This document shows positions 1 through 31,212 of a DNA stretch of 64,000 nucleotides, one piece after another. The first letter of the stretch is position 1. Each line of letters begins with the position of its first letter. A program made the translations under genes and the position numbers. The stretch is from Noviherbaspirillum massiliense JC206 (lineage in GTDB: Bacteria; Pseudomonadota; Gammaproteobacteria; Burkholderiales; Burkholderiaceae_D), in assembly GCF_000312045.1 (NCBI RefSeq), contig NZ_HE978635.1, positions 436,674 through 500,673 of the forward strand. Direction: 5' to 3'. The notes beneath the pieces are model-generated. The model was given only the letters and a program-made list of their open reading frames with translations, was not told where the DNA came from and made no database searches.

Positions 1-243
1 ATGGTTTACGGCCTGCAGGCCGTTGCGTGCAGCAGCAAGGAATTCCAGCAGGTCATTCGGGGGAGGAAGCGCGTTCAGGGTATCGACAATCATGCGGCTT
101 GCGAGATCGCCGGACGCATGCCCGCCCATGCCGTCGGCCACAGCCCATATGCCACGGTCCGGCTGGTCGAGGCACGCATCCTCGTTGCGCTGGCGGACCC
201 GGCCTGTGTGGGAAAGGGAAGCTGATGTCCAGCGAAATTGCAT
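1..243 (-). CDS. PP2C-family Ser/Thr protein phosphatase, N-terminal part (truncated by window edge)
   Basis: Only the first 81 residues are present; the gene continues beyond base 1. The translation has the opening signature of PP2C phosphatases: TGRVRQRNEDA at about residues 12-22, then AVADGMGGHASGDLAS at about 34-49, whose Asp and Gly residues bind the two Mn/Mg ions. The ATG at 243-241 is the only start codon after an in-frame stop ten codons upstream, but there is no clear Shine-Dalgarno. It lies downstream of, and in the same direction as, the peptide gene at 617-820. It would be the natural antagonist of the Ser/Thr kinase at 4914-6962, as in PppA/PpkA pairs. Family call is firm; the pairing is inference. 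Confidence 0.85.
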   Translation of the reverse strand, partial: MQFRWTSASLSHTGRVRQRNEDACLDQPDRGIWAVADGMGGHASGDLASRMIVDTLNALPPPNDLLEFLAAARNGLQAVNH

Positions 244-616: not shown

Positions 617-820
617 TCAGAACGCCCACATCGGAACCTTGGGGAAGTAGCCGTTGTTGACGGTAACCACGCTGGACAGATCGACCTGGGTCACGGAAGC
701 GACATTGCCGATGCCGTTCTGGCCGATGACGGACACGTTGGTGCCGCCACGTACGGCGCGCATGGCTTTGCGGTCGAGGTCCTGGCTGAGGGGCAGGTCT
801 TTGATCATGAGTGCGGACAT
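617..820 (-). CDS. GG-leader small peptide 1 (putative exported peptide/bacteriocin-like precursor)
   Basis: This 67-residue precursor starts at the ATG at 820, preceded on the minus strand by AAGGAG about 8 bases upstream. Residues 1-26 form a leader with IKDL near the start, LDRKAMRAVRGG at the end, and Gly25-Gly26 at the expected cleavage point of a double-glycine (C39 peptidase) leader. The remaining 41 residues are rich in Asn, Val and Ser, contain QNGIGNVASVTQ, which resembles one curlin repeat, and lack Cys. It is almost identical to peptide 3 and related to peptides 4 and 2. A conserved upstream region (to about 968) probably carries its promoter. Function is unknown; export by the HlyD/NodT pair in this window is inference. 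Confidence 0.8.
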   Translation of the reverse strand: MSALMIKDLPLSQDLDRKAMRAVRGGTNVSVIGQNGIGNVASVTQVDLSSVVTVNNGYFPKVPMWAF

Positions 821-1213
821 GGTGATTCTCCTTGAGTAAGTTGGGTTGAGAGTTGTGAGCATTTGATTGCACACGCCAGACATACAGCAGGGACTGTGCC
901 AGTCGCGGCCCTGCCTTCGCTGGCATGACCCAAGTCTTTGAATAAAAAGGGAAATAGAAGAACGTCAAGCGCGCGAAGTGGCGTCGTTGCTTGGCGAGGC
1001 GCCATGGAGATGATGGGCGGTGGCCAACAGCTTGCAGCGCACTGTCTGGCACAGTGCGACATCTCGGTGCCTGTGGCGCTGCGGGCCACGGTAACGTGCA
1101 TTCATGCTTAAGTGAAGCAGGAAATTTGCTAAATCGTTCCGGATGGAGGTGACTGTCCTCATTCTTTTCATTACCCTTAGTGCGTTCGATAACAATCCCG
1201 CAAGTGATACCTG
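821..1213. other. Peptide 1 leader/promoter region and upstream region of chrA
   Basis: The half next to peptide 1 (to about 968) is homologous to the region upstream of peptide 4, including the identical 30-base block at 884-913. The other half (969-1213) shows no recognisable element; it must contain the start signals for the divergent chromate transporter gene. Confidence 0.6.
940..968 (-). promoter_or_regulatory. Putative promoter of GG-leader peptide 1
   Basis: On the minus strand TTGACG (968-963) is followed after 17-18 bases by TTATTC/TATTCA. The same GCGCTTGACG block and spacing recur upstream of peptide 4 (4518-4513). Conservation between the two copies is the main support; the -10 box is weak, so this could instead be a regulator site. 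Confidence 0.4.
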
Positions 1214-2467
1214 ATGAGCCAATTGAAGCAGACCGAACAACACCGCGACACGGGACCCGCCGTTAACGATATCCGGTCAGAGGCCGGAAGCGGTTCGGTC
1301 GGCGAAGTCTTTCTCGCCTTCCTGAAACTGGGCCTGACTTCGTTTGGCGGGCCGGTCGCCCATCTGGGTTACTTTCGGGCCGAATTCGTGCAGCGCCGCA
1401 AATGGCTCGACGACAAAAGCTTCTCCGATCTGATTGCGCTCTGCCAGTTTCTGCCGGGCCCGGCAAGCAGCCAGGTCAGCATCGCGCTCGGCCTCGGACG
1501 GGCGGGATGGCTCGGCGCATTCGCAGCCTGGGTGGCATTCACCTTGCCATCCGCCATCGCCCTCATCTTGTTTGCCTCCGGCGTGACACATTGGGCAGGC
1601 CTTTCGCAGTCGGGCGCTGTTCATGGGCTCAAGGTGGTCGCGGTGGCGGTGGTGGCGCAGGCGGTATGGGGCATGGCGAAATCGCTTTGCCCCGACCGCC
1701 CCCGGGCGGGAGTCGCCATCGGCGCTGCCTTGCTGGTGCTGGCCGTGCCTTCCGCGGCAGGGCAAATCGCCGCTATTGCAGCGGGCGGCGTGATCGGCCG
1801 CTGGGTATCGAAGGTTAATCATCTGCCTGCCGCCACGCACCGTGACTACGGCGTCAGCAAGATCACCGGAGCTGTTTTGCTGCTGGTCTTCGTAGCATTG
1901 CTGGGCATCCTGCCAGTCGTTGCCGCAACCTCGCACTCAACTGTGCTTTCCGCCATCTCCGTGTTCTACAAAGCCGGTGGGCTGGTATTCGGCGGCGGGC
2001 ATGTCGTGCTTCCCTTGTTGCAGGCCGGAGTCGTTCCGACCGGCTGGGTCGGCAATGACGCTTTCCTTGCCGGATACGGGGCGGCACAGGCGGTGCCCGG
2101 TCCTTTGTTCACGTTCGCAGCGTATCTTGGGGCCGTCATGCCCAGCCCCCTGGGTGGATGGGGCGGCGGATTGATCTTGCTGGCCGCCATCTTCCTTCCG
2201 GCATTCCTGCTCGTCGTCGGCGCATTGCCATTCTGGGAACTACTGCGGCAGCGTGATGCCGTGCAACGGGCAACGGCAGGCGTCAATGCCGCCGTTGTCG
2301 GAGTGCTGGCCGCAGCGCTCTACGACCCGGTCTGGACCAGTGCCATCCACATGCGCAGCGACTTCGGCCTGGCCCTGGCAGCGTTTGGCTTGCTTGTATA
2401 CGGGCGGGTTTCGCCGGTCATTGTCGTCATCCTCTCTGCGCTCGCGGGCTGGGCAATGGCGATCTGA
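1214..2467 (+). CDS. chrA: Chromate efflux transporter ChrA
   Basis: This 417-residue membrane protein belongs to the CHR family, which expels chromate across the inner membrane using the proton motive force. It has the two-domain long-chain layout. The first CHR domain starts near residue 35 with FLKLGLTSFGGPVAHLGY and FLPGPASSQ. The second starts near residue 250 with AGGLVFGGGHVVLPLL and AVPGPLFTFAAYLG. About ten hydrophobic segments are visible and the length matches the family. The next gene on the same strand (hemerythrin-like) follows after 118 bases. Both sit between two near-identical copies of a peptide gene on the other strand. Family assignment is firm; chromate specificity is not proven by sequence. 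Confidence 0.9.
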   Translation: MSQLKQTEQHRDTGPAVNDIRSEAGSGSVGEVFLAFLKLGLTSFGGPVAHLGYFRAEFVQRRKWLDDKSFSDLIALCQFLPGPASSQVSIALGLGRAGWLGAFAAWVAFTLPSAIALILFASGVTHWAGLSQSGAVHGLKVVAVAVVAQAVWGMAKSLCPDRPRAGVAIGAALLVLAVPSAAGQIAAIAAGGVIGRWVSKVNHLPAATHRDYGVSKITGAVLLLVFVALLGILPVVAATSHSTVLSAISVFYKAGGLVFGGGHVVLPLLQAGVVPTGWVGNDAFLAGYGAAQAVPGPLFTFAAYLGAVMPSPLGGWGGGLILLAAIFLPAFLLVVGALPFWELLRQRDAVQRATAGVNAAVVGVLAAALYDPVWTSAIHMRSDFGLALAAFGLLVYGRVSPVIVVILSALAGWAMAI

Positions 2468-2585
2468 CCGGGCGAACCGGAACCAGGCCCATACCGCAGT
2501 CGTCGAATTCCTGGTCGTGCAAGCATTGCTCGCCGTGGACTCCCGCGGCGCAAGGCTCGCCGCTATGCACCCGGGAGGCATGACG

Positions 2586-3284
2586 ATGTTCAAGCGCAGG
2601 GATTTTTTGGTCACGACGATCGCGAGCAGCGGTCTCGCAGTCGCTGAATTGCCGGGCACCCCGAGCTTCGCTGCAGAGCAGGAGAAGAAGGTGACGGCCA
2701 ACGAAGACTTGATGCGTGAGCACGGCGTGCTGCGCCGCGCTTTGCTGGTCTACGCTGCTGCAGCCGAGCTGCTGCAGCAGAAGCCCGGATCTGTTCCCGC
2801 GGCGGCGCTGACGAAAACCGCCAGGCTGTTCCGCAACTTTGGCGAGGATTATCATGAACGCCGCCTCGAAGAAAAAATCATCTTCCCCGCCGTAAGAAAG
2901 CTCAAGGGACCCGCGGCCCGCTATCCTGATGTACTGGAACAACAGCATGACCGCGGCCGCGAGCTGACCGACTATGTGATGCAGGTTTCCAAGAGTGGAA
3001 CGATCGGCAGCGCTACCGCTCCGGTGCTGGCCAAGGCATTACAGCAATTCAATCTGATGTACGACCACCATACGGCACGAGAAGACACGATTGTCTTCAC
3101 TGCATGGAAGGATTCGCTGTCCGGGAATGCCTATGACGAAATAGCCGAGCAGTTCGAGAGCATCGAAAAGCAGGTCTTTGGCCATGACGGCTTTGAGGAG
3201 GCGGTCAAGCAAATCACGAGCATCGAAGAAGAGCTTGGCTTGTCCGATATCGCAAAATTCACCATGCCCACGCCGCCGAGATAA
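2586..3284 (+). CDS. Exported hemerythrin-like HHE-domain protein
   Basis: This protein of about 232 residues has a Tat-like signal (MFKRRDFLVTT, then a short hydrophobic stretch ending near Ala-Ala-Glu) and an HHE cation-binding domain. Likely iron ligands lie in REHGVLRR, YHERRLEEKIIFP, QQHDRGRE and YDHHTAREDTIVF. Such domains bind a di-iron centre and act in oxygen, NO or redox handling. I chose the ATG at 2586 because GGGAGG lies seven bases upstream; the in-frame ATG at 2580 is too close to it. It may be cotranscribed with chrA, where a role in metal or oxidative stress would fit, but this is inference. Confidence 0.85.
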   Translation: MFKRRDFLVTTIASSGLAVAELPGTPSFAAEQEKKVTANEDLMREHGVLRRALLVYAAAAELLQQKPGSVPAAALTKTARLFRNFGEDYHERRLEEKIIFPAVRKLKGPAARYPDVLEQQHDRGRELTDYVMQVSKSGTIGSATAPVLAKALQQFNLMYDHHTAREDTIVFTAWKDSLSGNAYDEIAEQFESIEKQVFGHDGFEEAVKQITSIEEELGLSDIAKFTMPTPPR

Positions 3285-3510
3285 CGCGGAAATTTGTTTC
3301 CGGTAGCACTTACCCGGACCGATAGTCGTTAAGTTCCACTGCCGCTGCCAGGTTCCGGCTCAACCGCTTGTATCGGAACAAGAGTCGCGAGCCGGCCGTA
3401 CGCTGTCGGCGCGCAAGCCGGCATTGCCCGGGAGAGAGCGGTACCGGACAACGCCGGTGCTTTGCGCTTTCCTGACGCGCTGTCCCTCTTTGAGAAAGGC
3501 GTCTGCGGAT

Positions 3511-3729
3511 TTACTTCAGCAGCTTGCTTCTCGTCGTCAGCCTGTCGGCATTCGACAATGTGCTGGACGCAAAGCCGGTGGGATAGGAGACGATTCGCGA
3601 TCCTCGGGATAAGGTGCTGCGGGGGGCAACGGAGTGACCACGGGTACGGGCACCACCCGTAATCGCACGCATCGCTTCGCGATCCAGTTCGATGCTGTCC
3701 GGCAGGTCCTTGATGACGATATTGGCCAT
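3511..3729 (-). CDS. GG-leader small peptide 2 (divergent paralogue)
   Basis: The 72-residue precursor starts at the ATG at 3729, with AAAGGA upstream. Its 26-residue leader (IKDLPDSIELDREAMRAITGG at the end) aligns with those of peptides 1, 3 and 4 and stops at the same Gly25-Gly26. The following 46 residues are quite different: basic and Ser/Arg/Thr-rich, with no curlin-like motif and no Cys. Conservation of the leader with a divergent core is typical of peptides sharing one exporter. It follows peptides 4 and 3 on the same strand, after a strong hairpin at 3840-3874. Confidence 0.7.
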   Translation of the reverse strand: MANIVIKDLPDSIELDREAMRAITGGARTRGHSVAPRSTLSRGSRIVSYPTGFASSTLSNADRLTTRSKLLK

Positions 3730-3839
3730 GACATGGTCCTTTGGAGAAGGATGGTCTGATGCGACCATCGGGGAGGAAAGGGAAGATGGGATCGGCATGA
3801 ATCCGCATCCAGTATAGGTCAGTCAGCAATCAACGCATC

Positions 3840-3874
3840 GCATCCCGGGGAGGAATACTTCCTCCCCGGGATGC
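3840..3874 (-). terminator. Very strong hairpin between peptides 3 and 2
   Basis: A perfect 16-base-pair inverted repeat (3840-3855 with 3859-3874, core catcccggggagga) closes a three-base loop. There is no T-run on either strand. It may be a rho-independent-like attenuator or an RNA processing/stabilising hairpin reducing expression of peptide 2 relative to peptides 3 and 4. Confidence 0.55.
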
Positions 3875-3899
3875 GGAACGCAGGCTTATGCTGGCCTGA

Positions 3900-4106
3900 T
3901 CAGAGCGGCCACAGAGGTCCCTTGGGGAAGTAGCCGTTGTTGTTGACGGTGAGTACGCTGGACAGGTCGACTTGAGTCACGGAAGCGACATTGCCGATGC
4001 CGTTCTGGCCGATGACGGACACGTTGGTGCCGCCACGTACGGCGCGCATGGCTTTGCGGTCGAGGTCCTGGCTGAGGGGCAGGTCTTTGATCATGAGTGC
4101 GGACAT
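3900..4106 (-). CDS. GG-leader small peptide 3
   Basis: The 68-residue precursor is nearly identical to peptide 1: the same 26-residue Gly-Gly leader and the same NVSVIGQNGIGNVASVTQ segment. It differs only towards the C-terminus (VLTVNNNGYFPKGPLWPL against VVTVNNGYFPKVPMWAF). DNA identity runs from the ribosome-binding site through about 150 bases, pointing to a recent duplication. AAGGAG precedes the ATG at 4106. It lies 63 bases downstream of peptide 4 with no hairpin between, so the two are probably one transcript. Confidence 0.8.
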   Translation of the reverse strand: MSALMIKDLPLSQDLDRKAMRAVRGGTNVSVIGQNGIGNVASVTQVDLSSVLTVNNNGYFPKGPLWPL

Positions 4107-4169
4107 GGTGATTCTCCTTGAGTAAGTTTGGGTGAGAGTGATGAGTATTGGACTCGATTGCTATTTCAT

Positions 4170-4370
4170 TTAGCAGGGCAGATGCGGCCGCTTGAAGAAG
4201 TCGTTGTTGATGGTAACCAGGTGCGACAGGTCGACCTGGGTCACGACAGCCACGTTGCCGATGCCGTTCTGGTCGATCACGGATACGTTGGTGCCGCCGC
4301 GCACAGCCAGCATGGCTTTGCTATCGAGGTCTTTGCTGACAGACAGGTCTTTGATCATGAGGGTGGACAT
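4170..4370 (-). CDS. GG-leader small peptide 4
   Basis: The 66-residue precursor starts at the ATG at 4370, with AAGGAG upstream. The leader (MIKDLSVSKDLDSKAM, then LAVRGG) ends at Gly25-Gly26. The core repeats NVSVIDQNGIGNVAVVTQ with changes and ends in FFKRPHLPC, the only copy with a Cys. It is the first gene of the 4-3-2 peptide cluster and shares about 125 bases of upstream sequence with peptide 1, so both probably answer to the same regulator. Confidence 0.8.
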   Translation of the reverse strand: MSTLMIKDLSVSKDLDSKAMLAVRGGTNVSVIDQNGIGNVAVVTQVDLSHLVTINNDFFKRPHLPC

Positions 4371-4913
4371 GGTGATTCTCCTTAAGTAAGTCGGGTTGAG
4401 AAGATTGAGCATTTTGTTGGGCTCGCCAGACATACAGCAGGGACTGTGCCAGTCACGCCTTCGGCTGCAGAGTCAACGCTTAAGCCTTTGAATGCAAAAG
4501 GAAATAGAAAAACGTCAAGCGCCGGCGACAATCAGAGCACTCATGCCGGGCCCATGCGGATGACGGGCGCGGACCAACACAATGCAGTCCTCTGTTCGGC
4601 GCGTCACGACAGGCCTCGCCCGCCGGGATTGCGCATGAATACGTGCACGTTACACAGTGCAAATTGACGCTCTGCATCGATGCATGCCGGCGCGTATCCA
4701 CACTGAAAAGCGACCGCGACACGACCGGATATTCGCCCGCCGGCATGCCGGCCATCATGCTTGACAAAGCCATCAATGAGGCAGTGAATTTACAAGTACC
4801 GCCTGTGTCTGAACCAGTGTGGTCTTGCATGAAGAAGCATGGGAGCGGGGCGGTCGCGACACATAACAACTGAAGCAAGGAAAGAGCGACCGGGAAACTC
4901 GGTGTGAACAACA
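4371..4913. other. Divergent regulatory region between peptide 4 and the Ser/Thr kinase gene
   Basis: The half next to peptide 4 (to 4518) matches the upstream region of peptide 1 and includes the identical block at 4428-4457. The rest (4519-4913) has reading frames without protein character and no recognised element. It should hold the kinase promoter. Confidence 0.5.
4487..4518 (-). promoter_or_regulatory. Putative promoter of the peptide 4-3-2 cluster
   Basis: The minus strand carries GCGCTTGACG (TTGACG at 4518-4513) followed after 17-18 bases by GCATTC/CATTCA, matching the arrangement upstream of peptide 1. The downstream TTTCTATTTCC tract is also shared. The -10 match is poor; conservation between duplicates is the evidence. 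Confidence 0.4.
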
Positions 4914-6962
4914 ATGGCTAATCTGGCGCACGCGATTCGCAGCTTCCAGAGCGGCGGCCTGTCGCCCCGGGAGTTTTTCGCGCAGGTTGATCGTGCATTG
5001 GCGGCAGAACAACCCAATCCCGCGCGCCTGCTGGAAATCCTGAGCGACGAACACACGCGGACCCAGCTGCCGCCCGACGTATATACGGAGTTGCAGAGGC
5101 GGATCGAGCACGCAGTCAAGGCCAAGCAGGACGCGAGCGACGACGCGACCCGGGTGCAGCCCCAGCCCGCCTATCGCGCTGACCCGCAGCCGGCTTCGCC
5201 GGTACATGCTGAAGCCAGGCAACCGGAGCCGGACCGGATGAAGGGCATCGGCGATACCCTGAACGGCCGCTTCGTGCTGGAAGAATGCATCGGCTTCGGC
5301 GGCATGGGGACGGTGTACAAGGCGCTCGACCTGCGCCGGCTGGAGGCTTCCGACCGCAAGCCGTATATCGCCATCAAGGTGCTGAATGTCCAGTTCCGCG
5401 GCCATCCGAAATCGCTGATCACCCTGCAGCGGGAAGCCAAGAAGGCGCAGACGCTCGCGCATCCGAACATCGTGACGGTGTACGACTTCGACCGCGACGG
5501 GTCGACGGTCTATCTGACGATGGAATATCTCGCCGGCAAACCACTGAGCCAGACGCTCAGGATGCCAGGATTCGAAGGCATGCCTTATGCGCAAGCCATT
5601 CATATCGTCAGCGGCGTTGCCAAGGCTCTGTCCTATGCGCATGAGCGCGGGTTCGTGCATTGCGACCTCAAGCCGGCCAATGTCTTTCTTACGGATACGG
5701 GGGACGTCAAGGTCATCGATTTCGGTATATCCCGCGTATTCCAGAAGCCGGCGGAGGATGCGGAAGCCACGGTGTTCGACCCGGGCAGCCTCGGCGGACT
5801 GACGCCGGCCTATGCCAGCCCGGAAATGCTGGAACACCGCGCGCCGGATCCGCGCGACGATATCTATGCCCTGGCTTGCATCACTTATGAGCTGCTGACC
5901 GGGAAGCATCCCTTCGACCGCCGTTCCGCCATCGATGCCCGCGCCGCAGGCATGAAGCCGCAGCGGCCGAAGAATCTCGACCAAAGGCAATGGCGCGCCC
6001 TGAAAGCGGCCCTGTCCTTCGATCGCGACAGCCGCACGCCCACGGTGACGCGCTTTCTGCAGGAAATCAGCGGGGAGCGACGGTCAAGCAAGTATTTGGC
6101 GCTGGCGGGCTCGACGCTGGCGCTTGCGGTGCTGCTTGCCTTGGGCGCCGGCTATTACTGGACATCGCGCCATCCGGAAGGCGGGGAGCAGGCCACCGAA
6201 ACTCCGACCGCCGAAGGCGCGGCACAGAACAATGCGGCGACCAATACAGCGAACAATGCCACGCGGGCCCCGGCACCCGCACCTCCACTCTCGCTCGCTG
6301 CCGTGCAGCCCGTCCTTGAGCGCGTACCCTGTTCGGCGCTCGCGCCTTCGGTAGACGGCGACGCCTTGCAAGTCCGGGGGTATATTCCGGCGAGTTTTGG
6401 CGCGGCGCGCCTGAAGGGCATGCTGGAGGCGGTGCCCGGTGTGCAGACGCTGAACCTCGACGTGCAGCAGGTGAGCGATGAGAAATGCAGGGTGATCAAT
6501 GCCTTTGCGCCGTACTGGAAGAGCAACCGGCAAGCCGGGGGCGCTGCATCCATCCATACCAAAGCACCCAATGCAGAATTGAAGGAAGGGGATGCTCTGG
6601 TCGTTGACATCACGACACCCGGTTACGATTCCTTTGTCTATGTCGATTACTATGCGCTGGATGGCAGCGTGGCCCACCTGGTGCCGAGCCGGCGCGCCAG
6701 GGCCAACCAGGCGCCGCCCGATTACAAGGCGACGGTGGGAGGGCTCGGGAACTGGGTGATTGCCGGGCCGTTCGGCACCGAACTCATCGTGCTGCTTGCC
6801 GTACCCGCGCCACTGTTCGAAAGCTTGCGCCCGGACTCTGAAGCGGGGGGCGATTACTTGCAGGCAGTGGAAAAACAGCTGAAGCAGATCGCGGCCAAAT
6901 ACGGAACGGACAAGATTGCCGCCGACTTCGTGCAGATCAGTACCCGCCCGCGCAAGCCCTGA
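4914..6962 (+). CDS. Membrane Ser/Thr protein kinase with C-terminal DUF4384-like domain
   Basis: This 682-residue protein has an N-terminal helical part (1-75) and a Pro/Gln/Ala linker. A complete Hanks-type kinase domain follows at about 118-385: glycine loop GFGGMGTV at 127-134, Lys155 in AIKVL, catalytic HCDLKPAN at 249-256, DFG at 269-271 and YASPE of the activation segment. One membrane helix lies at about 394-416, then an Ala/Thr/Asn linker. The extracytoplasmic domain is DUF4384-like (GDALVVDITTPGYDSFVYVDYY). All catalytic residues are present, so it should be active. FHA proteins nearby are natural readers of its phospho-Thr marks. It ends five bases from the convergent caspase-like gene. 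Confidence 0.92.
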   Translation: MANLAHAIRSFQSGGLSPREFFAQVDRALAAEQPNPARLLEILSDEHTRTQLPPDVYTELQRRIEHAVKAKQDASDDATRVQPQPAYRADPQPASPVHAEARQPEPDRMKGIGDTLNGRFVLEECIGFGGMGTVYKALDLRRLEASDRKPYIAIKVLNVQFRGHPKSLITLQREAKKAQTLAHPNIVTVYDFDRDGSTVYLTMEYLAGKPLSQTLRMPGFEGMPYAQAIHIVSGVAKALSYAHERGFVHCDLKPANVFLTDTGDVKVIDFGISRVFQKPAEDAEATVFDPGSLGGLTPAYASPEMLEHRAPDPRDDIYALACITYELLTGKHPFDRRSAIDARAAGMKPQRPKNLDQRQWRALKAALSFDRDSRTPTVTRFLQEISGERRSSKYLALAGSTLALAVLLALGAGYYWTSRHPEGGEQATETPTAEGAAQNNAATNTANNATRAPAPAPPLSLAAVQPVLERVPCSALAPSVDGDALQVRGYIPASFGAARLKGMLEAVPGVQTLNLDVQQVSDEKCRVINAFAPYWKSNRQAGGAASIHTKAPNAELKEGDALVVDITTPGYDSFVYVDYYALDGSVAHLVPSRRARANQAPPDYKATVGGLGNWVIAGPFGTELIVLLAVPAPLFESLRPDSEAGGDYLQAVEKQLKQIAAKYGTDKIAADFVQISTRPRKP

Positions 6963-6967
6963 GTTTC

Positions 6968-8971
6968 TTATTTGAGGTCCCGCGCCACCCGAAAGCCATT
7001 CTGCGCCTGGCGGACGCTGGCGTCGTACTTGAAGCGCGTCGTCACGGGCATGTAGCTTGCCCCTTCGCGCCAGGAGCCGCCGCGGATCACCCGCACCCGG
7101 CAATTCGGATCATTCCACGCGCGGCCATCGCCGGGCGCGCCCTTGAAGGAATTGTGCCAGCAGTCGCTGACCCATTCCCATACGCTGCCGTTCATGTCGT
7201 AAAGACCATAGGGATTGGGTGCGAAGGAGCCGACGTTCTCCGGCCCTTCCGGGTGCCACGGCCCGCCGCATTCCTTGCAATTGGCCTTGCCCTTGCTCAT
7301 CTGCTCGCCCCACCAGTAGCGCGTGGAAGTGCCGCCCCGTGCCGCGAATTCCCATTCGGCTTCGGTCGGCAGGCGGTAGGGCTTGCCGCTGACTTTGCCC
7401 AGCCATTTCATGTACTGCTGGGTATCGTCCCAGCTCACGTTCCGCATCGGCATGTTGGCGCCCTGGCTCGTATCGCCTGCTATCTTCGGGCAGCCACCGG
7501 CGTCCGCGCAGGCATTCCATTGCGCGACCGTGACTTCATATTTTCCGATCGCAAACGGTGTCCTGATCGTTACCTGGTGGGCCGGCTTTTCACTCGGATC
7601 GCTGGCATTGCTTCCCATGGTGAATGTCCCATGCGGCAAGCCGATCAGTGCCGGGCATTCGGGACAGTCCTTGAGTTCGCTGACGCGCCCCGCTGTCGAC
7701 GGCGGGGCTTCCGCCTGAGACGGTGCGGCGGGAGCCGGGCTGGCGCGCTCAGGAGCAGCCTTCCTTGCAGGCGCGGAGCGGGCGCGTTCAGCCGGCTTGG
7801 GCGCGGGCTGGGTGGGAGGGGCGGCTTTGGTGGCAGGCTGCGCTTCTTCCTGCGGCGTCTCGGCTTTCGGGGCAGCCGCGCGCAGGCGGGCGATGCGGGC
7901 CTTGGCCAGGGCGGCAAAGCGGCCGTTCGGATAGGCTTGCAGATAGGCTTCGTAATCGCTCGCGTGGGTGCTGTCCTTGATCGAGTCCCAGAAGGTGAGC
8001 TCGTACTGCTCGGCACTGTCCTTCGGGATGACGCCGCGGCTGCGCAGCGCGGATGCGGCTTCCTGCCCCGTCAATGCGAGTGTCTGCACCTGCTTGCCTT
8101 GTGCGGCCCCGGTGAACGCGAAGCGGCTCGACAGCGATGATGCCATCCAAGGCAGCTGCCGCTGTTTGCTCCTCTGCAGCACTGTCCCTGCAGCCAGATG
8201 CAACATGGCTTCAATATCCAGATCGGGATCGGCGATGGCTTGCAGCAGAGCCGCCGTATAGAGCCCGTGGCGCGCATCTTCGGCAGCCGGCGCACCGGGA
8301 CGGGTGGCATAGGCGACGATCGTCTGTTGCGCCGTTTCCGGCAGGCTTGCTGCCGGTGTTGCGGAGGGTGTGCCAAAGGGATTGCCAAAGGGATTGTCCA
8401 GGCAGGCGTCGAGTATGACGATATTCAGCTTGTCCGGCCGGGGCCTCGACATGGCTTCCAGGATGGCATGCAGGTCCATGCCATGCGTCAGCAGGCGGGC
8501 GGGGAAGCGCTCATCCGCATCCACAGGCACCAGCAGCGTCCTGTCGCGGACCTGCAGGCCATGGCCCGCGAAATAGAACAGGCCGATGCCGCCGGCATCG
8601 AGGCGCCGGCTGAATTCACGCAGTGTTGTCTGCATACCCTGCGCATCCAGGTTTTCCTGGCGCATGACTTCAAAGCCCCTCGATTCCAGCGCGGCACTGA
8701 TCGCACGCGCATCGTTGACCGGACTGGCGAGCGGATCATCGCGGTAATCCTCGTTTCCGATTACGAGTGCGACGCGCCTGGGTTCGATTCCGGTTTCGGC
8801 ATGCCCGGTACCCGACGCAACAGGCTCAACCGGAACACGGTCCGGCTGCGCGTTCGCGTCGAGACCAAGGGCCGGGACCAGGGGCATGGCCCCGAGCATC
8901 CAAACGATCAAAAGTTTCCGCCACACAGCCTGGCCTTTAGAAGTCCGCCGATGCGCCATGGCCCGATTCAT
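6968..8971 (-). CDS. Caspase-like (C14) peptidase fused to SUMF1/formylglycine-generating-enzyme-like domain
   Basis: The 667-residue protein has a hydrophobic segment at 18-38 (signal or anchor). A caspase-type p20 domain covers about 65-260, with catalytic His137 in FAGHGLQ and Cys190 in ILDACLDN. A helical part and a Pro/Ala-rich linker (about 370-425) follow. A full SUMF1/EgtB-type domain covers about 435-665, with IGKYEVTVAQWNACA, RLPTEAEWEFAARGG, NGSVWEWVSDCW and RVIRGGSW. Bacterial C14 peptidases cleave after basic residues; SUMF1 domains often serve as binding or regulatory modules. ATG 8959 is an alternative start. It converges on the kinase gene with a five-base gap. Confidence 0.9.
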   Translation of the reverse strand: MNRAMAHRRTSKGQAVWRKLLIVWMLGAMPLVPALGLDANAQPDRVPVEPVASGTGHAETGIEPRRVALVIGNEDYRDDPLASPVNDARAISAALESRGFEVMRQENLDAQGMQTTLREFSRRLDAGGIGLFYFAGHGLQVRDRTLLVPVDADERFPARLLTHGMDLHAILEAMSRPRPDKLNIVILDACLDNPFGNPFGTPSATPAASLPETAQQTIVAYATRPGAPAAEDARHGLYTAALLQAIADPDLDIEAMLHLAAGTVLQRSKQRQLPWMASSLSSRFAFTGAAQGKQVQTLALTGQEAASALRSRGVIPKDSAEQYELTFWDSIKDSTHASDYEAYLQAYPNGRFAALAKARIARLRAAAPKAETPQEEAQPATKAAPPTQPAPKPAERARSAPARKAAPERASPAPAAPSQAEAPPSTAGRVSELKDCPECPALIGLPHGTFTMGSNASDPSEKPAHQVTIRTPFAIGKYEVTVAQWNACADAGGCPKIAGDTSQGANMPMRNVSWDDTQQYMKWLGKVSGKPYRLPTEAEWEFAARGGTSTRYWWGEQMSKGKANCKECGGPWHPEGPENVGSFAPNPYGLYDMNGSVWEWVSDCWHNSFKGAPGDGRAWNDPNCRVRVIRGGSWREGASYMPVTTRFKYDASVRQAQNGFRVARDLK

Positions 8972-9288: not shown

Positions 9289-9714
9289 ATGATGATGCAA
9301 AGAACTGTAGTGCTCGCTGCCATACTCGCGGCGGCTTCGGGATTCGCCTCCGCTGCCGGGACGCCCGCTCCGAAGAATGCGGAAGTCTATGTCATCTGGC
9401 CGCCGAACGGCGCCGTGATTCAAGGCGGCAAATTCTGGGTACGCATGGGCTTGCGCAACATGGGCGTGTGCCCGAAAGGCATCAATCTTCCCAACGTGGG
9501 CCATCATCATTTGCTGATCGACACCGAGCTGCCGGCAATAAACGAGCCCATTCCGTCGGACCGCAATCACTTGCACTTCGGTGCGGGAGAAACCGAGGCG
9601 CGCATCGAACTTCCTCCGGGGAAGCACACCTTGCAATTGCTGCTGGGAGACCACGATCACGTGCCTCACGATCCTCCCGTGTATTCGAAAAAGATCTCGA
9701 TCACGGTGCGATGA
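9289..9714 (+). CDS. Secreted DUF4399 protein, copy 1
   Basis: The 141-residue protein has a Sec signal peptide (to about Ala22-Ala24) and a DUF4399 domain. Conserved motifs are WPPNGA, FWVRMGLRNMGV, VGHHHLLIDTELP, SDRNHLHFGAGETEA and PGKHTLQLLLGDHDH. The many His residues suggest metal binding, but the family has no established function. Three ATG codons run in a row; the first (9289) lies 8 bases after AGGAGG and is chosen. A close paralogue follows after 20 bases, so the two form an operon. Confidence 0.88.
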   Translation: MMMQRTVVLAAILAAASGFASAAGTPAPKNAEVYVIWPPNGAVIQGGKFWVRMGLRNMGVCPKGINLPNVGHHHLLIDTELPAINEPIPSDRNHLHFGAGETEARIELPPGKHTLQLLLGDHDHVPHDPPVYSKKISITVR

Positions 9715-9734: not shown

Positions 9735-10154
9735 ATGACCAAGGCTTATGCGACTGCCGCCTTTCTTCTTTTTTCCGGAATGGCCTATGCCGGTCCCACT
9801 CCGGCGCCGGCCAATGCCCACCTCTACATCGGCTGGCCCAACGACGGGCAGGTGATTGCAGCCGGCAAGCCTTTCCGGGTATGGTTCGGCTTGCGCGACA
9901 TGGGCGTGGCACCGAAAGACGTGAAGTTCCCAAATACCGGCCACCATCATCTCCTGATCGATACCGAGCTGCCCCCCTTCGACCAGGAAATTCCATCCGA
10001 CCGGAACCACCTGCATTACGGCATGGGCGAGACCGAAACCCAGCTGGAACTGCCGCCGGGAAAACATACCCTGCAACTGCTGATGGGGGACGACAAGCAT
10101 ATTCCCCACAACCCGCCGGTCTATTCAAAAAAGATCACGATCACCATCAAGTAA
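9735..10154 (+). CDS. Secreted DUF4399 protein, copy 2
   Basis: The 139-residue protein has a signal peptide ending near AYAGPTP. Its DUF4399 domain shares WPNDGQ, FGLRDMGVAPK, TGHHHLLIDTELP, SDRNHLHYGMGETE and PGKHTLQLLMGDDKH with copy 1. GGAGG four bases before ATG 9735 sets the start. The tandem arrangement and high similarity indicate a local duplication. Role unknown; periplasmic location is predicted from the signal peptide. Confidence 0.88.
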   Translation: MTKAYATAAFLLFSGMAYAGPTPAPANAHLYIGWPNDGQVIAAGKPFRVWFGLRDMGVAPKDVKFPNTGHHHLLIDTELPPFDQEIPSDRNHLHYGMGETETQLELPPGKHTLQLLMGDDKHIPHNPPVYSKKITITIK

Positions 10155-10378
10155 ATCCGTCTGGCATCCTGATAGGGGGCATTAATGATCCCGCCCTGCC
10201 TTCCTCGTTTGGTTTGATCCCGATTAAGTAACCGATAGTTGATGCGCTGACAGGGATGCATGGCAGGCCTAGGCTGAACGAAAGGCGTCCGGTCCCGGCC
10301 CTTGTCTTCGATCCGTCCCTGACAGCTCGCGGTGCAACCTGGCTGCCCTTCATTTCCTGATTGCGCAAGAGGTTCGCG

Positions 10379-12698: not shown

Positions 12699-12793
12699 GG
12701 CAATGCAAGATTGTACAGAAAGGAAGGAAGACAGATCGCTGCGACTGATCCCATGCGGGTCTTGGTCCATATCAAACTTGCTGGAATAAATGC

Positions 12794-12828
12794 AGCCGGA
12801 AACACCAGCATTGCTGGCGTTTCCGGCT
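12794..12828. terminator. Long hairpin after the lipoprotein gene
   Basis: A 15-17 base-pair stem with one G-T mismatch (12794-12810 with 12812-12828, arm agccggaaac) surrounds CATTG. There is no T-run, so it may not act as a classical terminator. It separates the lipoprotein gene from the FHA-HD-GYP gene and argues against translation of the latter starting as early as 12790. Confidence 0.5.
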
Positions 12829-12888
12829 AACGTCAAACATACTGAGATGACTAATCCGCATCCCGGCTCCGGGATGAACGGAGGCGCG

Positions 12889-14826
12889 ATGGAAACCCCA
12901 GCAAGTATTGCCGGTTCAGCCGGCGCAGAGATGGCCTATCTGGAAGTCATCGGGGATGGCACGGGCAAGCCGATCGTCTTTCCTCTCCATGATGAAGTCG
13001 TCATCGGGCGTGACCCGCAGGATTCGCTGGCCTCCGACAAATTCCTCTGCATCCCCGAGCACACGGTGAGCCGGCGCCATGCGCGCATTTCGCGCCGGGG
13101 CGATATCTATTTCGTGGAAGACTTGCATTCATTCAATGGCACATACGTGCTCGGCAAGCGGCTCGCGCCCGGTGCATGGCATCCGCTGCGGGATGGGGAC
13201 GAACTCAGCGTCTCGTCCGCCCAGATCGTGTTCCATTCGCTGATCGAACCCGACCGCGACAGCATGCCGACCATCATCACCAAGGCCGTCGACGCGACGG
13301 AGTACACGCGGGTTTCCGAAGCGCCGGCCGAGGCGGCCCAGGGCGACATGCAGCGCACGGTGCAAAAGCTGCATGCCATGGCACAGGTGAGCATCGCGCT
13401 GGGCGTGGTCACCGACCGCGCGACCCTGATCGAAAAGATCATGAACTTCATCTTCGACCTGTTTCCGCTGGCCGAGCGTGCCTTCATCCTGCTGCCGAAA
13501 AGCGAGGGCGAAGCACCGGCGCCGGTGGCGGCCCGGCGGCGCGACGGCACAGTCGAAGACCCGGACAAAGCCAGGATGTCGCGCACCATCATCGAGGAAG
13601 TGCTTAACCGGAAGCAGGCGATCCTCTCGGTCGATACCTTGTCCGACCGTCATTTCGGTTCGCGGGATTCCATCATTTCCCAGGCAATCCGCAGCGTGAT
13701 GTGCGTGCCTCTGCTGCTGGAAGACGAGTGCCTCGGCCTGATCCAGGTCGATACTTCTTCCGATCCCTATGCCTTCAAGGAACAGGACCTGGAGATGCTT
13801 ACCGGCGTGTGCGCGGAAGCTGCGGTGGCGCTGAAGAATTTCCAGCTGTATTCCGACATCGAACGCCTGCTCGATGGCTTCGTGCGCGCATCGGTGCAGG
13901 CGATCGAGGAACGCGATCCGGTGACGGCGGGCCACTCCTTCCGCGTCGCCGGCTATGCTGAACACCTGGCGCAGGCGGTGGACCGGGCCGATGCGCCCGG
14001 CCTGCGCCAGATCGTCTTCAGCAAGGACCAGCTGCGCGAGATCCGCTATGCCGCGCTGCTGCACGACTTCGGCAAGGTGGGCGTGCGCGAGCATGTGCTG
14101 CGCAAGGAAAAGAAGCTGCACCATGCCGACATGCGCCTGCTGGAACAGCGCTTCAAGTATGCCCAGGCTTGCCTGGAGCGCCAGGCGTACCGGCGGCTGG
14201 TCGAACTGCATGCCCGGCATGAGCTCAGCATGGCGGCATTCCGCGAAGCCAAGCGCGGAATCGAAGAAGGCTTGCGCGAAGAAGTCGACCGCCTGGAGCG
14301 CTTTCTCGATGCCATCCGGCGCGCGAACGAGCCCGCGGTTTCCGCGAGCGCGGGTCTGCCGGACTTGAAGGAAGTCATGGATTATGCCTACGGCGAATCG
14401 GATGACGCCATGCTGCCCTTGCTGGTGCAAGCGGAGTTCTCGGCACTGAGCCTGCCCAAGGGATGCCTCACGCTGGAGGAGCGGCGCCAGATCGAATCGC
14501 ATGTGGCCGATTCCTACTCCTTCCTGATCCTGATTCCGTGGACACGCGATCTTGCCAGCGTGCCCGCGATCGCCCATGGCCATCACGAGAAGCTGGATGG
14601 TTCCGGTTATCCGATGGGCTTGCGCGGCGACCAGATCAGCGTCCAGACGCGGATCCTGACCATTTGCGACATCTTCGATGCGCTCACCGCCGGGGACCGG
14701 CCCTACAAGAAAGCGGTGCCGGTGGAACAGGCACTGGACCTGATCGGCCTGGAATGCCAGGCCGGCCATCTCGATGCGCGCCTGTTCGAAGTGTTCGTTG
14801 AATCCAGGGTGTGGACGCCGGCGTAA
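12889..14826 (+). CDS. FHA-GAF-HD-GYP protein (putative c-di-GMP phosphodiesterase reading phospho-Thr)
   Basis: The protein has about 645 residues. An FHA domain lies at about 25-118 (VVIGRDP, VSRRHARI at 60-67, SFNGTYV) and a GAF domain at about 165-320. An HD-GYP domain begins near 333, with LLHDFGKVG (His392-Asp393) and HHEKLDGSGYP, followed by DALTAGDRPYKKA. HD-GYP enzymes hydrolyse c-di-GMP; the FHA domain should bind phospho-Thr. A helical insertion of about 150 residues lies between the HD and GYP parts. I chose ATG 12889 (GGAGG four bases upstream); ATGs at 12847 and 12874 are in frame. It links the kinase locus to c-di-GMP signalling by inference. Confidence 0.88.
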   Translation: METPASIAGSAGAEMAYLEVIGDGTGKPIVFPLHDEVVIGRDPQDSLASDKFLCIPEHTVSRRHARISRRGDIYFVEDLHSFNGTYVLGKRLAPGAWHPLRDGDELSVSSAQIVFHSLIEPDRDSMPTIITKAVDATEYTRVSEAPAEAAQGDMQRTVQKLHAMAQVSIALGVVTDRATLIEKIMNFIFDLFPLAERAFILLPKSEGEAPAPVAARRRDGTVEDPDKARMSRTIIEEVLNRKQAILSVDTLSDRHFGSRDSIISQAIRSVMCVPLLLEDECLGLIQVDTSSDPYAFKEQDLEMLTGVCAEAAVALKNFQLYSDIERLLDGFVRASVQAIEERDPVTAGHSFRVAGYAEHLAQAVDRADAPGLRQIVFSKDQLREIRYAALLHDFGKVGVREHVLRKEKKLHHADMRLLEQRFKYAQACLERQAYRRLVELHARHELSMAAFREAKRGIEEGLREEVDRLERFLDAIRRANEPAVSASAGLPDLKEVMDYAYGESDDAMLPLLVQAEFSALSLPKGCLTLEERRQIESHVADSYSFLILIPWTRDLASVPAIAHGHHEKLDGSGYPMGLRGDQISVQTRILTICDIFDALTAGDRPYKKAVPVEQALDLIGLECQAGHLDARLFEVFVESRVWTPA

Positions 14827-14869: not shown

Positions 14870-16321
14870 ATGCATACCTCAACTTTTTCCGCAGCTTCCG
14901 GCGAACGCAGGCACGATTGCCGCATACCGCCTGCACGCCTGGCGACGGCTGCCGTGTGCGCCTCCCTGCTGTGCGCCTGCGCCGATGTCCGCATGCCGAA
15001 CTATCGGCAACCCGACACCCCGGTCAAGGCTTCGTGGTCCGGGCAGGCGACCCCGGTGTCGGCCTCCGAGGCGATCACGCCGGAGTGGTGGAAGGAATTC
15101 CGCGACCCTTACCTCGACAGCCTGGTGACGAAGGCGATCCAGGGCAACTTCGATGTCAAGGTGCTGGCCGCGCGCATCCGGGTGGCCGAAGCCGCGATCG
15201 GCGAAGCCCGGGCCGGCGCGCTGCCGACGCTGAATGCCGGTGCTGGCGCCAGCTTCGAAAAAAGCACCGGGCAGAATTTCGCGCGGCAATTCAACCTGAA
15301 TACCCAGGTCAACTGGGATATCGATATCTGGGGCAAGGTCGAGAAGGGCGTGCAGGCGCAGACGGCGGAATACCGCGCGAGCGAGGCGGATTGGCGCGCT
15401 GCATACCTGACACTGGTATCGGATGTCTCCACCACCTATTTCCAGATCCTCCAGCTCGACGAGCAGATCGACAGCCAGCAGCAAGCCCTGGACAAGGCGA
15501 AGCAGATACTGGCGATTTATGAAGCGCAGTACAGGAATGGCCTGTTGCCCAATACCCGGGTGCTGCAGCAGCGCGCGGAGATCAACCGCCTGACCACCGA
15601 TCTGCTGGAACTGCGCCGCGCGCGCAGCCTGTCCGACAATGCGCTGGCGACGCTGATGGGCGTGCCGGCCGGTGAATTCAAGGTGCCTTCCGGTCATTTG
15701 CAGGAAAAAATCGAACTGCCGGACGTGCCGTCCGGCTTGCCGTCGGAACTGCTCAAGCGCAGGCCGGATATCGTCGCGGCGGAATACCGGGTGCTGGAAG
15801 CCTACGATCTGGTGGGGCAGGCCAAGCTGGCGCAACTGCCTTCGGTCAGCCTGACTGCGAGCGGAGGAACGTCCAGCCTGGCTCTGTCCGGCTTGCTGAA
15901 GTCGTTCACCTTCGGCCTGGCGCCCGCGATCAACATTCCGGTGCTGGACCCGGGCGTCAGAGCGCGCGTCAAGACCAGCGAGGCGCAATCCGAGGTGATC
16001 GAACAGCAGTACCGGAAAACCGTGATGGCCGCGTTCGAAGAAGTCGAAAACACACTCGTGAATCTGGATGCGCACAAGAAGCAGAGAGCCGAACTGGAAC
16101 AGCAGATCGAACATCTGCGGGTGGTCGCGGCCCAGGTGGAAGGGCAGCTGAAGGAAGGCATGGTGTCGCAGCTGGATGTGTTCGAGGCGGAGCGCTCGCT
16201 GCTCGGCACGCAGCTCGCGCTGCTGGCCAATCATCAGCAAATCCTGTCGGACACGGTCACGCTGTACAAGGCGCTGGGCGGAGGCTGGCCGCCGGTCGAG
16301 GTCAGCAATGCGCGCAGGTAA
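14870..16321 (+). CDS. NodT/TolC-like outer-membrane efflux lipoprotein
   Basis: The protein of about 483 residues begins with a lipoprotein signal whose LCAC lipobox places the lipidated Cys at about 37. It continues with the two repeated outer-membrane efflux domains (WWKEFRDPYLDSLV, LLKRRPDIVAAEYRVLEAYDLVGQAKLAQLPSVSL). Such trimeric channels connect inner-membrane exporters to the cell surface. The downstream FHA gene starts six bases after its stop and HlyD follows it, so this is probably the outer-membrane part of a type I secretion route. It could also serve the RND pump at 40533-45015, which lacks its own channel. A small 7-bp hairpin at 14827-14843 precedes it. Confidence 0.9.
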   Translation: MHTSTFSAASGERRHDCRIPPARLATAAVCASLLCACADVRMPNYRQPDTPVKASWSGQATPVSASEAITPEWWKEFRDPYLDSLVTKAIQGNFDVKVLAARIRVAEAAIGEARAGALPTLNAGAGASFEKSTGQNFARQFNLNTQVNWDIDIWGKVEKGVQAQTAEYRASEADWRAAYLTLVSDVSTTYFQILQLDEQIDSQQQALDKAKQILAIYEAQYRNGLLPNTRVLQQRAEINRLTTDLLELRRARSLSDNALATLMGVPAGEFKVPSGHLQEKIELPDVPSGLPSELLKRRPDIVAAEYRVLEAYDLVGQAKLAQLPSVSLTASGGTSSLALSGLLKSFTFGLAPAINIPVLDPGVRARVKTSEAQSEVIEQQYRKTVMAAFEEVENTLVNLDAHKKQRAELEQQIEHLRVVAAQVEGQLKEGMVSQLDVFEAERSLLGTQLALLANHQQILSDTVTLYKALGGGWPPVEVSNARR

Positions 16322-18862: not shown

Positions 18863-20201
18863 GGCGCTCGAAGACCACAGCGCCGAAGGCATTGCACTCC
18901 TGACCGCCGAGCCGTCGCGCTTCACGGGTGCCGCGGTGATCGCGATGGTGGCGCTGGTGCTGGCTGGACTGGCCTGGTCGTTTTTCGGCCATGCGGACGT
19001 GATCGTGACGGCACCGGGCACGCTGCAGCCGGAATCGGATGTACGGCGCGTCTATGTGCCGGTGGATGGCGAGCTGGCCAATCTCTATATCGCCGAAGGC
19101 CAGCCGGTATCGAAGGGCGATGTGCTGGGCCGGCTGAATGCGCGTGGCGCGATCGAGGCCGCCACCAATGCGCTCGAAGCCCAGCTGAAACTCGAGGATG
19201 CGGAGCGGGAGTGGCGCCAGTTCCCGGAACGGAAGGCGCTGATGGAACGCAAGGCGCAGGCCCTGCAACAGCAGATCGAGGCGGAAGAGCGCCTGCATGA
19301 AAAGCGCATGTCGGAAGGGACGAGCAAGCTGGCGGAAGGGCAGAAGGCGCAGCTGCAGGAAGCACGCAGCAATCTCGACAATGCGCGCCGCGCGCGCGAC
19401 CTTGCCAAGGAAGAGGCAGACAAGTTCGCGCGCCTGTTCGCCATGCCCGGCGGCGGTGGCGTGTCGCAGTCGCAGGTCGAAGCCAAGAAGAATGCCTTGC
19501 AGGCTGCGGAAAACGCGCTGCGGGTGGCGCAGTCGAAGCTCGGCGAATTGAATTTCCGGCTGAGCCAGGAATACCGGGAAGCCACCGAGAAGGTCGAGGG
19601 CAGCGGCCAGCAGCTTGCCAAGCTGCGCCTGGATTATGACGCGGCTTTGAAGGAGATCGCGATCGCGGAAGACAAGACGCGCCTGCAGGTGCAAACCGCC
19701 CGCCTGGTCGCCGACGCTGCCGCGCGAATCCGCTTCGAGAACATCGACAAGGATAATTTTCTCCTGATCGTCGCACCGGTGGACGGCGTCGTCACAGACG
19801 TGACATCCACCCAGCCCGGCGACAAGATACAGGCCAACGCGCCGCTGGGTGGCATCGCACCGAAAAATGCCCGGCCCGTGCTCAAGATCGCGATTGCCGA
19901 ACAGGACCGCGCTTTCCTGCGTGAAGGCCTTCCGGTAAAGATGAAGTTCAATGCCTTCCCCTACCAGCGGTACGGCCTCATCGATGGCACGCTCGAATAC
20001 ATTTCACCGGCCACCAAGCCCGCGGGGCAGAACAAGCAGCCGGTGTACGAGGGACGCGTCACGCTGCAGCGGGATTATTACCAGGTGGCAGACAAAAGAT
20101 ATCCCTTGCGTTACGGGATGACGGCAAGCGCGGAAGTCGTGGTACGCGAGCGCCGGCTGATCGATCTTGCGCTCGATCCTTTCCGCGATATCGGCGGATG
20201 A
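18828..20201 (+). CDS. HlyD-family type I secretion membrane-fusion protein
   Basis: The 457-residue protein has a short cytoplasmic N-terminus, one membrane helix at about 34-53, and a biotinyl-lipoyl half-motif (GTLQPESDVRRVYVPVDGELANLYIAEGQ split across the hairpin). A long coiled coil covers about 90-270. A second lipoyl half (IVAPVDGVVTDV) and a beta-barrel C-terminus (LPVKMKFNAFPYQRYGLIDGTLEYISPA) follow. This layout matches adaptors of peptidase-containing ABC exporters of GG-leader peptides rather than RND adaptors. GGGAGG eight bases before ATG 18828 fixes the start inside the preceding gene. No ABC transporter gene lies next to it; the following operon runs convergently. Confidence 0.9.
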   Translation: MKSGDRLKPLTEALEDHSAEGIALLTAEPSRFTGAAVIAMVALVLAGLAWSFFGHADVIVTAPGTLQPESDVRRVYVPVDGELANLYIAEGQPVSKGDVLGRLNARGAIEAATNALEAQLKLEDAEREWRQFPERKALMERKAQALQQQIEAEERLHEKRMSEGTSKLAEGQKAQLQEARSNLDNARRARDLAKEEADKFARLFAMPGGGGVSQSQVEAKKNALQAAENALRVAQSKLGELNFRLSQEYREATEKVEGSGQQLAKLRLDYDAALKEIAIAEDKTRLQVQTARLVADAAARIRFENIDKDNFLLIVAPVDGVVTDVTSTQPGDKIQANAPLGGIAPKNARPVLKIAIAEQDRAFLREGLPVKMKFNAFPYQRYGLIDGTLEYISPATKPAGQNKQPVYEGRVTLQRDYYQVADKRYPLRYGMTASAEVVVRERRLIDLALDPFRDIGG

Positions 20202-31205: not shown

Positions 31206-31212
31206 GCGAACC

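Follow-up and report, generated by a model that had tools for sequence, protein, structure and literature searches.

Near the start of a 64,000-bp stretch of the Noviherbaspirillum massiliense JC206 genome (the window; C2:436674-500673, C2 being one of the three contigs of this 4.19-Mb genome), four minus-strand genes encode small precursor peptides, P1–P4, that share a leader ending in Gly-Gly (GG). Our comparisons strongly support the view that P1–P4 share one exporter, a putative type I system in which a C39 peptidase is fused to an ATP-binding cassette (ABC) transporter. The first-pass annotation of this DNA had already read the varied cores behind a shared leader as the mark of one processing exporter, and co-occurrence, synteny, shared promoters, and the fit of the leader to C39 recognition positions all point the same way. 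C39 type I exporters with GG precursors are known as a kind; the present combination and its cargo appear to be new. As the best overall explanation we propose a dedicated exporter, sigma-54 control, and N/Q-rich structural subunits, a whole for and against which we see the balance as even. That the peptides are surface or matrix subunits, which we favor over bacteriocins or signals, is held with slightly less than even confidence. The genes on which the argument turns are these:

617..820, minus strand: P1, GG-leader precursor of 67 amino acids with a curlin-like core (leader-profile E 2.0e-14)
3511..3729, minus strand: P4, GG-leader precursor of 72 amino acids with a basic core of conserved type T4
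3900..4106, minus strand: P2, GG-leader precursor of 68 amino acids with a curlin-like core
4170..4370, minus strand: P3, GG-leader precursor of 66 amino acids with a curlin-like core (leader-profile E 5.3e-14)
C2:424202-427261, some 10 kb away from the window: exporter of 1019 residues, combining two cyclic-nucleotide-binding domains with a C39 peptidase and an ABC transporter
C1:371413, C1:802416, C2:677420, and C1:3068999: four dispersed leader genes of the same genome, found with the leader profile

The earlier description of four minus-strand precursor genes of 66–72 residues, with leaders of exactly 26 residues ending in Gly-Gly, is borne out: all four open reading frames (ORFs) were confirmed, and every leader has that length and end. 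The start codon is ATG throughout, and a Shine-Dalgarno-like AAGGAGAATCACC precedes P1, P2, and P3. Over the 53 codons compared, P1 and P2 differ at 5 (4 synonymous, 1 nonsynonymous). The AVxGG that was said to close the leader is present in P1–P3; P4 reads AITGG. A leader profile (A3; 26 columns, 47 rows, the P1–P4 leaders included) recovers P1–P4 from the genome at E values of 2e-14 to 6e-13, and its eight matches at E ≤1 are these four plus the four dispersed genes. By eye, the dispersed cores are unlike each other and unlike those of P1–P4, which suggests that the exporter also carries other cargo. A leader regular expression, itself written from these very sequences, found 123 ORFs in the 500,638 bases of N. 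massiliense and relatives' loci but 0 once these bases had been mononucleotide-shuffled. In 94 tabulated 26-residue leaders, gathered by a regular expression that constrained these same positions, −4 is V or I, −7 is M or L, −12 is L, and −2 is G, each in 94/94. Position −1 is G in 88 and A in 6, so that the loss of Gly-Gly, which the annotation had listed as evidence against its proposal, is confined to a GA end in 6/94 leaders. Hydrophobic residues at −4, −7, and −12 are the ones that the C39 domain of LahT requires, as far as the cited portion of that work goes (PMC6363468), and this fit supports one exporter serving the leader family.

The leader family is a patchy betaproteobacterial system. 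Among 245 genomes of the same taxonomic family, 33 carry the leader at E ≤0.001, in 10 of 44 genera, with a best leader E of ≤4.5e-8 in each positive genome. A search of the same 245 genomes with the first 440 exporter residues as query (E 1e-40) found the exporter in 28, namely in 28/33 leader-positive and 0/212 leader-negative genomes; the annotation had recommended a profile search with the leader and a look for linked C39-peptidase ABC transporters. An order-wide draw of 399 genomes placed leader and exporter in the same three, N. massiliense included (cut-offs 1e-80, 1e-5). We also collected exporter loci, the best 80 of 223 relatives, some of which coincide with genomes of the family set; their genera include Noviherbaspirillum, Herbaspirillum, Paraburkholderia, Caballeronia, Cupriavidus, Aromatoleum, Thauera, Massilia, Dechloromonas, and Rhodoferax. 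Within stretches reaching up to 10 kb on each side of the exporter, 75/80 loci hold a leader ORF, against 0/80 after shuffling. Tandem arrays occur in relatives (up to 13 leader ORFs at one Massilia locus), and near-identical tandem copies are found within single genomes. Pooling 20 relatives' stretches, the N. massiliense loci, and the 80 exporter loci gave 299 leader genes with 270 distinct precursors; precursor set A2 omits identical copies and one truncated precursor (L043:9108-9230).

The exporter itself matches PF03412 (C39) at E 5e-40, plus ABC domains, and its phmmer matches include ComA and chains named “ABC-type bacteriocin transporter.” Residues C317, H390, D406, and Q311 are invariant across seven sequences and, by analogy, would be the catalytic ones. 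With peptidase-containing ABC transporter systems (ComA, LahT, and others) it thus has in common the C39 Cys/His/Asp with oxyanion Gln, the ABC part, and a GG leader hydrophobic at −4, −7, and −12. The differences lie in its two N-terminal cyclic-nucleotide domains, in the N/Q-rich cores of the precursors, and in the linked kinase, phosphatase, FHA, HD-GYP, and sigma-54 activator genes. HetC of Nostoc, in which a cyclic-nucleotide (cNMP)-binding domain is likewise fused to C39-ABC, is the closest described domain architecture that we found; as described in the cited part of the HetC literature, it has one cNMP domain, whereas two are present here, and its cargo is a proposed signaling peptide, whereas here a candidate cargo adjoins the exporter (PMC10986499).

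Promoter anatomy provides a second line of evidence. The elements in the window are:

886..901, minus strand: candidate sigma-54 (−24/−12) site of P1, TGGCACAGTCCCTGCT, 10/12 consensus, 81 bp upstream of the ATG
1024..1029, minus strand: TGTTGG enhancer-like element of P1, 128 bp upstream of the −24 element
4436..4451, minus strand: candidate sigma-54 site of P3, 10/12 consensus, 81 bp upstream of the ATG
4574..4579, minus strand: TGTTGG enhancer-like element of P3

Sites were scored against a sigma-54 consensus of 12 positions, with at least 10/12 defining a strong site. Such sites occur in 120/277 distinct leader-gene upstream regions, compared with 31/1385 random segments and 13/1385 shuffles. 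A recount over 279 distinct upstream regions found 122 reaching at least 10, and 98 of those lie 70–95 bp before the ATG. All four dispersed leader genes have a site, at 89–100 bp with scores of 10–11; six machinery genes score ≤8. No site of its own was found upstream of P2 or of P4; P2 lies 63 bp downstream of P3 and so is probably on the same transcript. The element TGTTGG (CCAACA), sought 85–175 bp upstream of the −24 element, was learned from 80 promoters and is present in 32/41 held-out promoters versus 14/410 control segments, although it had already been noticed in the pooled data before this test and some genomes contributed to both sets. The composite TGTTGG-N104-134-TGGCAY-N6-TGCW has 16 matches in 6/8 genomes searched (none in G070 or G231), and its reversed control pattern has 0. 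By coordinate comparison, 14/16 matches precede leader genes, including all four in N. massiliense; one exception stands before a gene taken for a nitrate-transport-type binding protein, and the other has no clear gene. This special promoter apparently activates the peptide genes jointly. Two other approaches were fruitless: a CACTGT dyad upstream of P1, considered as an enhancer, showed no enrichment, and a k-mer comparison of six N. massiliense promoters found nothing, TGTTGG having emerged from larger sets.

The cores are diverse, and their composition is one of the grounds for a structural role. Regular expressions written after inspection of the sequences sort the 270 distinct cores into T1 (34), T2 (92), T3 (64), basic T4 (25), and other (55), and the three curlin-like window cores fall among the 55 unclassified. 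One copy of T3 is present in each of 74/98 loci with leader genes and one of T4 in each of 28/98, some of these loci being from the same genome. The P4 core, set apart by the annotation as entirely different and basic, is indeed basic and unrelated to P1–P3; it is not odd, since its assignment to T4 makes it a conserved family member found in 28 loci. N plus Q make up 19–23% of T1–T3 cores, versus 7.7% of large window proteins, and most T1–T3 members have cores of about 57–84 amino acids. Profile comparison links T1 to T2 and T3 to T2, each with E 3e-6 and probability 88% (single-pair E). The pattern Qx3Qx[QEDM], picked post hoc, occurs in 157/190 T1–T3 cores, with shuffle averages of 0.8, 2.8, and 1.6 for T1, T2, and T3. 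The P1–P3 cores form their own branch; nearest among those seen are cores of L043 and of Dechloromonas L152, which share VTQVD or VIQVD with them. The cores are under purifying selection, with a ratio of nonsynonymous to synonymous differences (pN/pS) of 0.16–0.34 in ungapped pairs of at least 70% identity, a choice that biases the ratio low. All-pairs values of 0.91, 0.68, and 0.53 were set aside in favor of these similar pairs, as they were thought to be spoiled by divergence.

The resemblance of the window cores to curlins is real, on sequence grounds, but narrow. P1–P3 all carry QNGIGNVAxVTQ, in agreement with the repeat previously noted in three cores. The longer motif QxGx2NxAx3Q, which we take to be that of curlins, was used as a query and is found in 3/270 distinct cores, all from the window, with at most 1 in 20,000 shuffles of each. 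The minimal curli repeat, given as X6QXGX2NX10 in the source as cited (PMC3521004), occurs in 4/270, once in each of P1–P3 and in one L138 core; this is the likeness to CsgA and CsgB. Several tandem curlin repeats were not found in P1–P3, each of which has a single one. The earlier label “curlin-like” therefore stands for one minimal repeat in P1–P3 and the L138 core, and it does not extend to a match above the Pfam cut-off or to the orthologous clusters, whose cores are mostly other N/Q-rich types. Besides their single, sub-threshold repeat, P1–P3 differ from curli in having a GG leader and no CsgG.

Could the peptides be true curlins that exchanged their CsgG exporter for a C39 ABC system? 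The longer motif in all three cores fits such a swap, as does the N. massiliense genome, in which CsgG has no match at E 0.001. With one repeat only, below the Pfam cut-off, and with 6/9 relatives examined keeping CsgG and above-cut-off curlin repeats at coordinates apart from the leader genes, we regard it as highly improbable. The L043 and L152 cores, nearest to those of the window, also lack QxGx2NxAx3Q. Curlin homology of the entire family was rejected because PF07012 (Curlin_rpt) finds only window precursors and the relatives' above-cut-off matches lie at separate curli loci. Bare QxGx2N was likewise dropped as a curlin sign in T2: it is enriched (20/92; shuffles 3.9), but no instance has the ten trailing residues of the repeat.

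The neighboring genes bear on the remaining alternatives. With N. massiliense proteins as queries against the 80 exporter loci, the sigma-54 activator is found in 80, a parvulin-type peptidyl-prolyl isomerase (PPIase) in 79, PP2C in 73, the double-FHA protein (FHA2) in 68, HlyD in 68, the outer-membrane channel in 67, DUF4399 in 63, the FGE protein in 61, the FHA-HD-GYP protein in 8, and the kinase in 4; the last two counts are attributed to the 10-kb flank. In 20 peptide-centered family stretches, the corresponding numbers are kinase 16, PP2C 16, FGE 15, DUF4399 13, FHA-HD-GYP 12, channel 12, activator 11, exporter 10, PPIase 9, FHA2 8, and HlyD 1. Seven control genes score 0–2/80 and 0–1/20. 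The conserved genes within the window, as labeled from Pfam and synteny, are:

1..243, minus strand: start of a PP2C-type phosphatase gene, the rest lying outside the window (C2:436158-436916)
4914..6962, plus strand: Ser/Thr protein kinase with a sub-threshold DUF4384 match
6968..8971, minus strand: caspase-like plus FGE-sulfatase-like protein
9292..9714, plus strand: DUF4399 protein (start chosen)
12790..14826, plus strand: FHA-GAF-HD-GYP protein, candidate cyclic di-GMP (c-di-GMP) phosphodiesterase (Pfam FHA, GAF, HD, HD_5)
14870..16321, plus strand: NodT/TolC-type outer-membrane channel (start chosen; longest ORF from 14774)
16328..18862, plus strand: FHA2
18828..20201, plus strand: HlyD-family periplasmic adaptor

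Signaling genes flank the peptides in most loci, which raises the possibility that the peptides are extracellular signals sensed by the kinase/phosphatase/FHA circuit, like ComC or the proposed HetC peptide. According to the part of the HetC work cited, that cNMP-C39-ABC protein requires its nucleotide-binding domain, binds ppGpp in vitro, and is required for heterocyst development (PMC10986499). Against a signaling role stand the arrays of up to 13 leader ORFs per locus, the length of the cores, and their strong N/Q bias; no receptor was identified. Such ORF numbers, core lengths, and N/Q bias are unusual for pheromones, and we consider the signal explanation quite unlikely.

Bacteriocins that kill competitors, whether class II microcin-like or NHLP-like, with many tandem variants widening the spectrum, would also suit these genes: GG leader, C39 ABC exporter, HlyD, and channel form the classical bacteriocin layout. 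Bacteriocin_IIc and ComC also match 9/118 and 7/118 precursors, weakly, in Pfam. Cyanobacterial clusters that combine a C39 ABC transporter, HlyD, SurA, and 1–16 precursors are described as bacteriocin clusters in the cited part of that study (PMC3140520). Yet the conserved neighbors of at least 90 amino acids include no recurrent peptide-paired gene (no search was aimed at immunity genes, and smaller ORFs were not systematically covered), the cores are under the purifying selection described above, whose ratio is lowered by the choice of pairs of at least 70% identity, and near-identical tandem copies sit inside single genomes. We consider a bacteriocin function unlikely.

The FGE-domain protein brings a further candidate, in which the peptides would be ribosomally synthesized and posttranslationally modified peptides (RiPPs) whose cores are modified in the periplasm by this FGE-sulfatase-like protein. 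Its conservation beside the exporter, a score of 172 bits with the PvdO model (cut-off 500), and weak matches of an ATP-grasp-target RiPP model to 9/118 precursors can be cited for it. Cys, however, is present in only 27/270 distinct cores (T1 0/34, T2 18/92, T3 2/64, T4 0/25, others 7/55), no leader-guided RiPP enzyme was recognized among the neighbors scanned, and the NCBIfam matches are weak, which together make a RiPP identity improbable. A separate observation concerns the caspase-like/FGE fusion (6968-8971): in several relatives, the length and sequence point to the FGE part alone, with a conserved N-terminal segment.

We therefore return to the dedicated exporter with structural cargo. 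P1–P4 would be four of the eight N. massiliense precursors using one type I exporter. From the promoter anatomy, the activator encoded beside the exporter probably binds TGTTGG and, with RpoN, drives the peptide genes. As gene families and synteny suggest, the C39 domain of the cNMP-cNMP-C39-ABC protein would cut after Gly-Gly, and mature peptides of 32–47 residues would exit via the ABC transporter, HlyD, and the NodT/TolC channel, assisted by the parvulin-type PPIase. Gating of export or expression, through phosphorylation and second messengers, is probably the task of the kinase, PP2C, FHA, and HD-GYP proteins together with the two cyclic-nucleotide domains. In the weakest step, the N/Q-rich cores, most of which lack cysteine, are most likely structural subunits from which an amyloid-like matrix or surface layer forms outside the cell; several peptides of this soil bacterium look like pieces of the sticky fibers of bacterial biofilms. 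The grounds for this step are the N/Q composition, the many near-identical copies, purifying selection, the curli repeat in the window, and the precedent of Pseudomonas Fap. If it holds, this would be an undescribed route to bacterial surface amyloid, in which many short N/Q-rich subunits are each cleaved and exported by a C39 ABC type I system that second messengers gate and that a dedicated sigma-54 enhancer and a Ser/Thr-kinase/FHA circuit control, in place of Sec/CsgG (curli) or Sec/FapF (Fap), and for which the window lineage evolved curlin-like single-repeat subunits. We advance this specific version only tentatively.

A number of observations weigh against this account. Bacteriocins or pheromones are the more frequent cargo of C39/ABC/GG systems, and the account comes from genomics. 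Neither P4 nor any of the four dispersed peptides has an amyloid-like look. The T3–T1 profile link is weak (E 3e-4, probability 41%, single-pair E), and the P1–P3 cores show no detectable relation to the T1 profile, the only one with which they were compared. An AlphaFold monomer of P1 (118 alignment rows) has a mean pLDDT of 57.5 and no strands, and is uninformative. With PF07012, whose cut-off is 20.7 bits, P1–P3 reach 17.9, 17.3, and 16.5; at E 0.1 the model matches 3/118 precursors, all three from the window, and C1:1582551, an unrelated site elsewhere in this genome, reaches 17.8 bits, so that the PF07012 score by itself is weak evidence. A strong sigma-54 site is absent from 157/277 leader-gene upstream regions, some of them array-internal (P2, P4). 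The Fisher value for the co-occurrence of leader and exporter, 5e-32, treats the genomes without phylogenetic correction. Finally, homologues without an exporter, which the annotation had counted as a blow to its proposal, occur in 5/33 leader-positive genomes (G021, G062, G071, G222, and G230); three of these are <90% complete, G222 is 91%, and G062 is 99%.

It is useful to contrast the structural-cargo system with the remaining known ones. Cyanobacterial C39/HlyD/SurA clusters also unite a C39 ABC transporter, HlyD, a SurA-like protein, and arrays of GG precursors; here no NHLP or N11P model is among the matches listed, and the portion of the study cited does not mention a kinase/FHA/sigma-54 circuit (PMC3140520). 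Pseudomonas Fap likewise joins a C39 peptidase to amyloid subunits with N/Q/G-rich repeats in one system, whereas its C39 protein (FapD) is, in the cited part of the work, a separate periplasmic protein with FapF as channel (PMC5557850); in the present system the C39 domain is part of the ABC exporter itself. None of the Pfam/NCBIfam precursor models (NHLP, Nif11, and other GG-leader families) matches P1–P4 above its cut-off, and among the matches listed for 118 members there are only weak ones, the best having E 0.00012 (a RiPP-precursor model). The earlier impression that no described family has such a core thus agrees with the absence of a fitting Pfam/NCBIfam precursor model among the matches listed. 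Among the open-access papers listed, none was recognized as a description of this cluster, subscription papers being mostly uncovered. In annotated plasmid records, the matched positions bear no gene names.

These results may be relevant in several ways. First, they delineate a candidate conserved peptide-export regulon in betaproteobacteria, including Noviherbaspirillum, Paraburkholderia, Caballeronia, Cupriavidus, Aromatoleum, Massilia, and others. Second, the system links peptide export with genes for phosphorylation and second messengers, and promoter rules derived from it find new cargo genes. Third, it allows the question of whether an amyloid-like matrix can be built by a C39 type I system to be tested directly.

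The arrangement of the locus varies. In Caballeronia sp. SBC2, the genes from kinase to PP2C lie together in a single 18-kb block (L155:3519-21107) without an FHA-HD-GYP match, and the same stretch has five leader ORFs, by eye T1, T2 twice, T3, and T4. In N. massiliense this block is broken up: first come PPIase, exporter, and activator, followed by methyltransferase-like (the label is our reading of the sequence), chemotaxis, and glutamyltransferase genes, and then by PP2C and P1. After P1 come two plus-strand genes, and then P4, P2, P3, the kinase, and the rest up to HlyD. The two intervening genes are:

1214-2467, plus strand: chromate transporter
2559-3284, plus strand: hemerythrin-domain protein

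Neither is found in any of the 100 other stretches, and they are therefore probably an insertion outside the system. Window genes 10147-11148 and 11712-12698, inside the block, are also matched in 0/100. Adjoining HlyD on the minus strand, three tandem ORFs of 471, 345, and 963 amino acids (20241-25618) have no Pfam match at 1e-5 and are in 0/100 stretches. DUF4399 proteins (window 9292-9714; L041-L059) have conserved His-rich stretches and are paired in many relatives. A gene that reads as Cu/Zn superoxide dismutase-like lies within peptide arrays at L041:9687-10229, L042:9971-10513, L059:7974-8516, and L060:9234-9767. Elsewhere in the window, a GGDEF-EAL protein (55600-58590) is a possible source or sink of c-di-GMP, and genes that by eye are type IV pilin-like (N-terminal FTLIELM), followed by a PilY1-domain protein, occupy 30753-37317.

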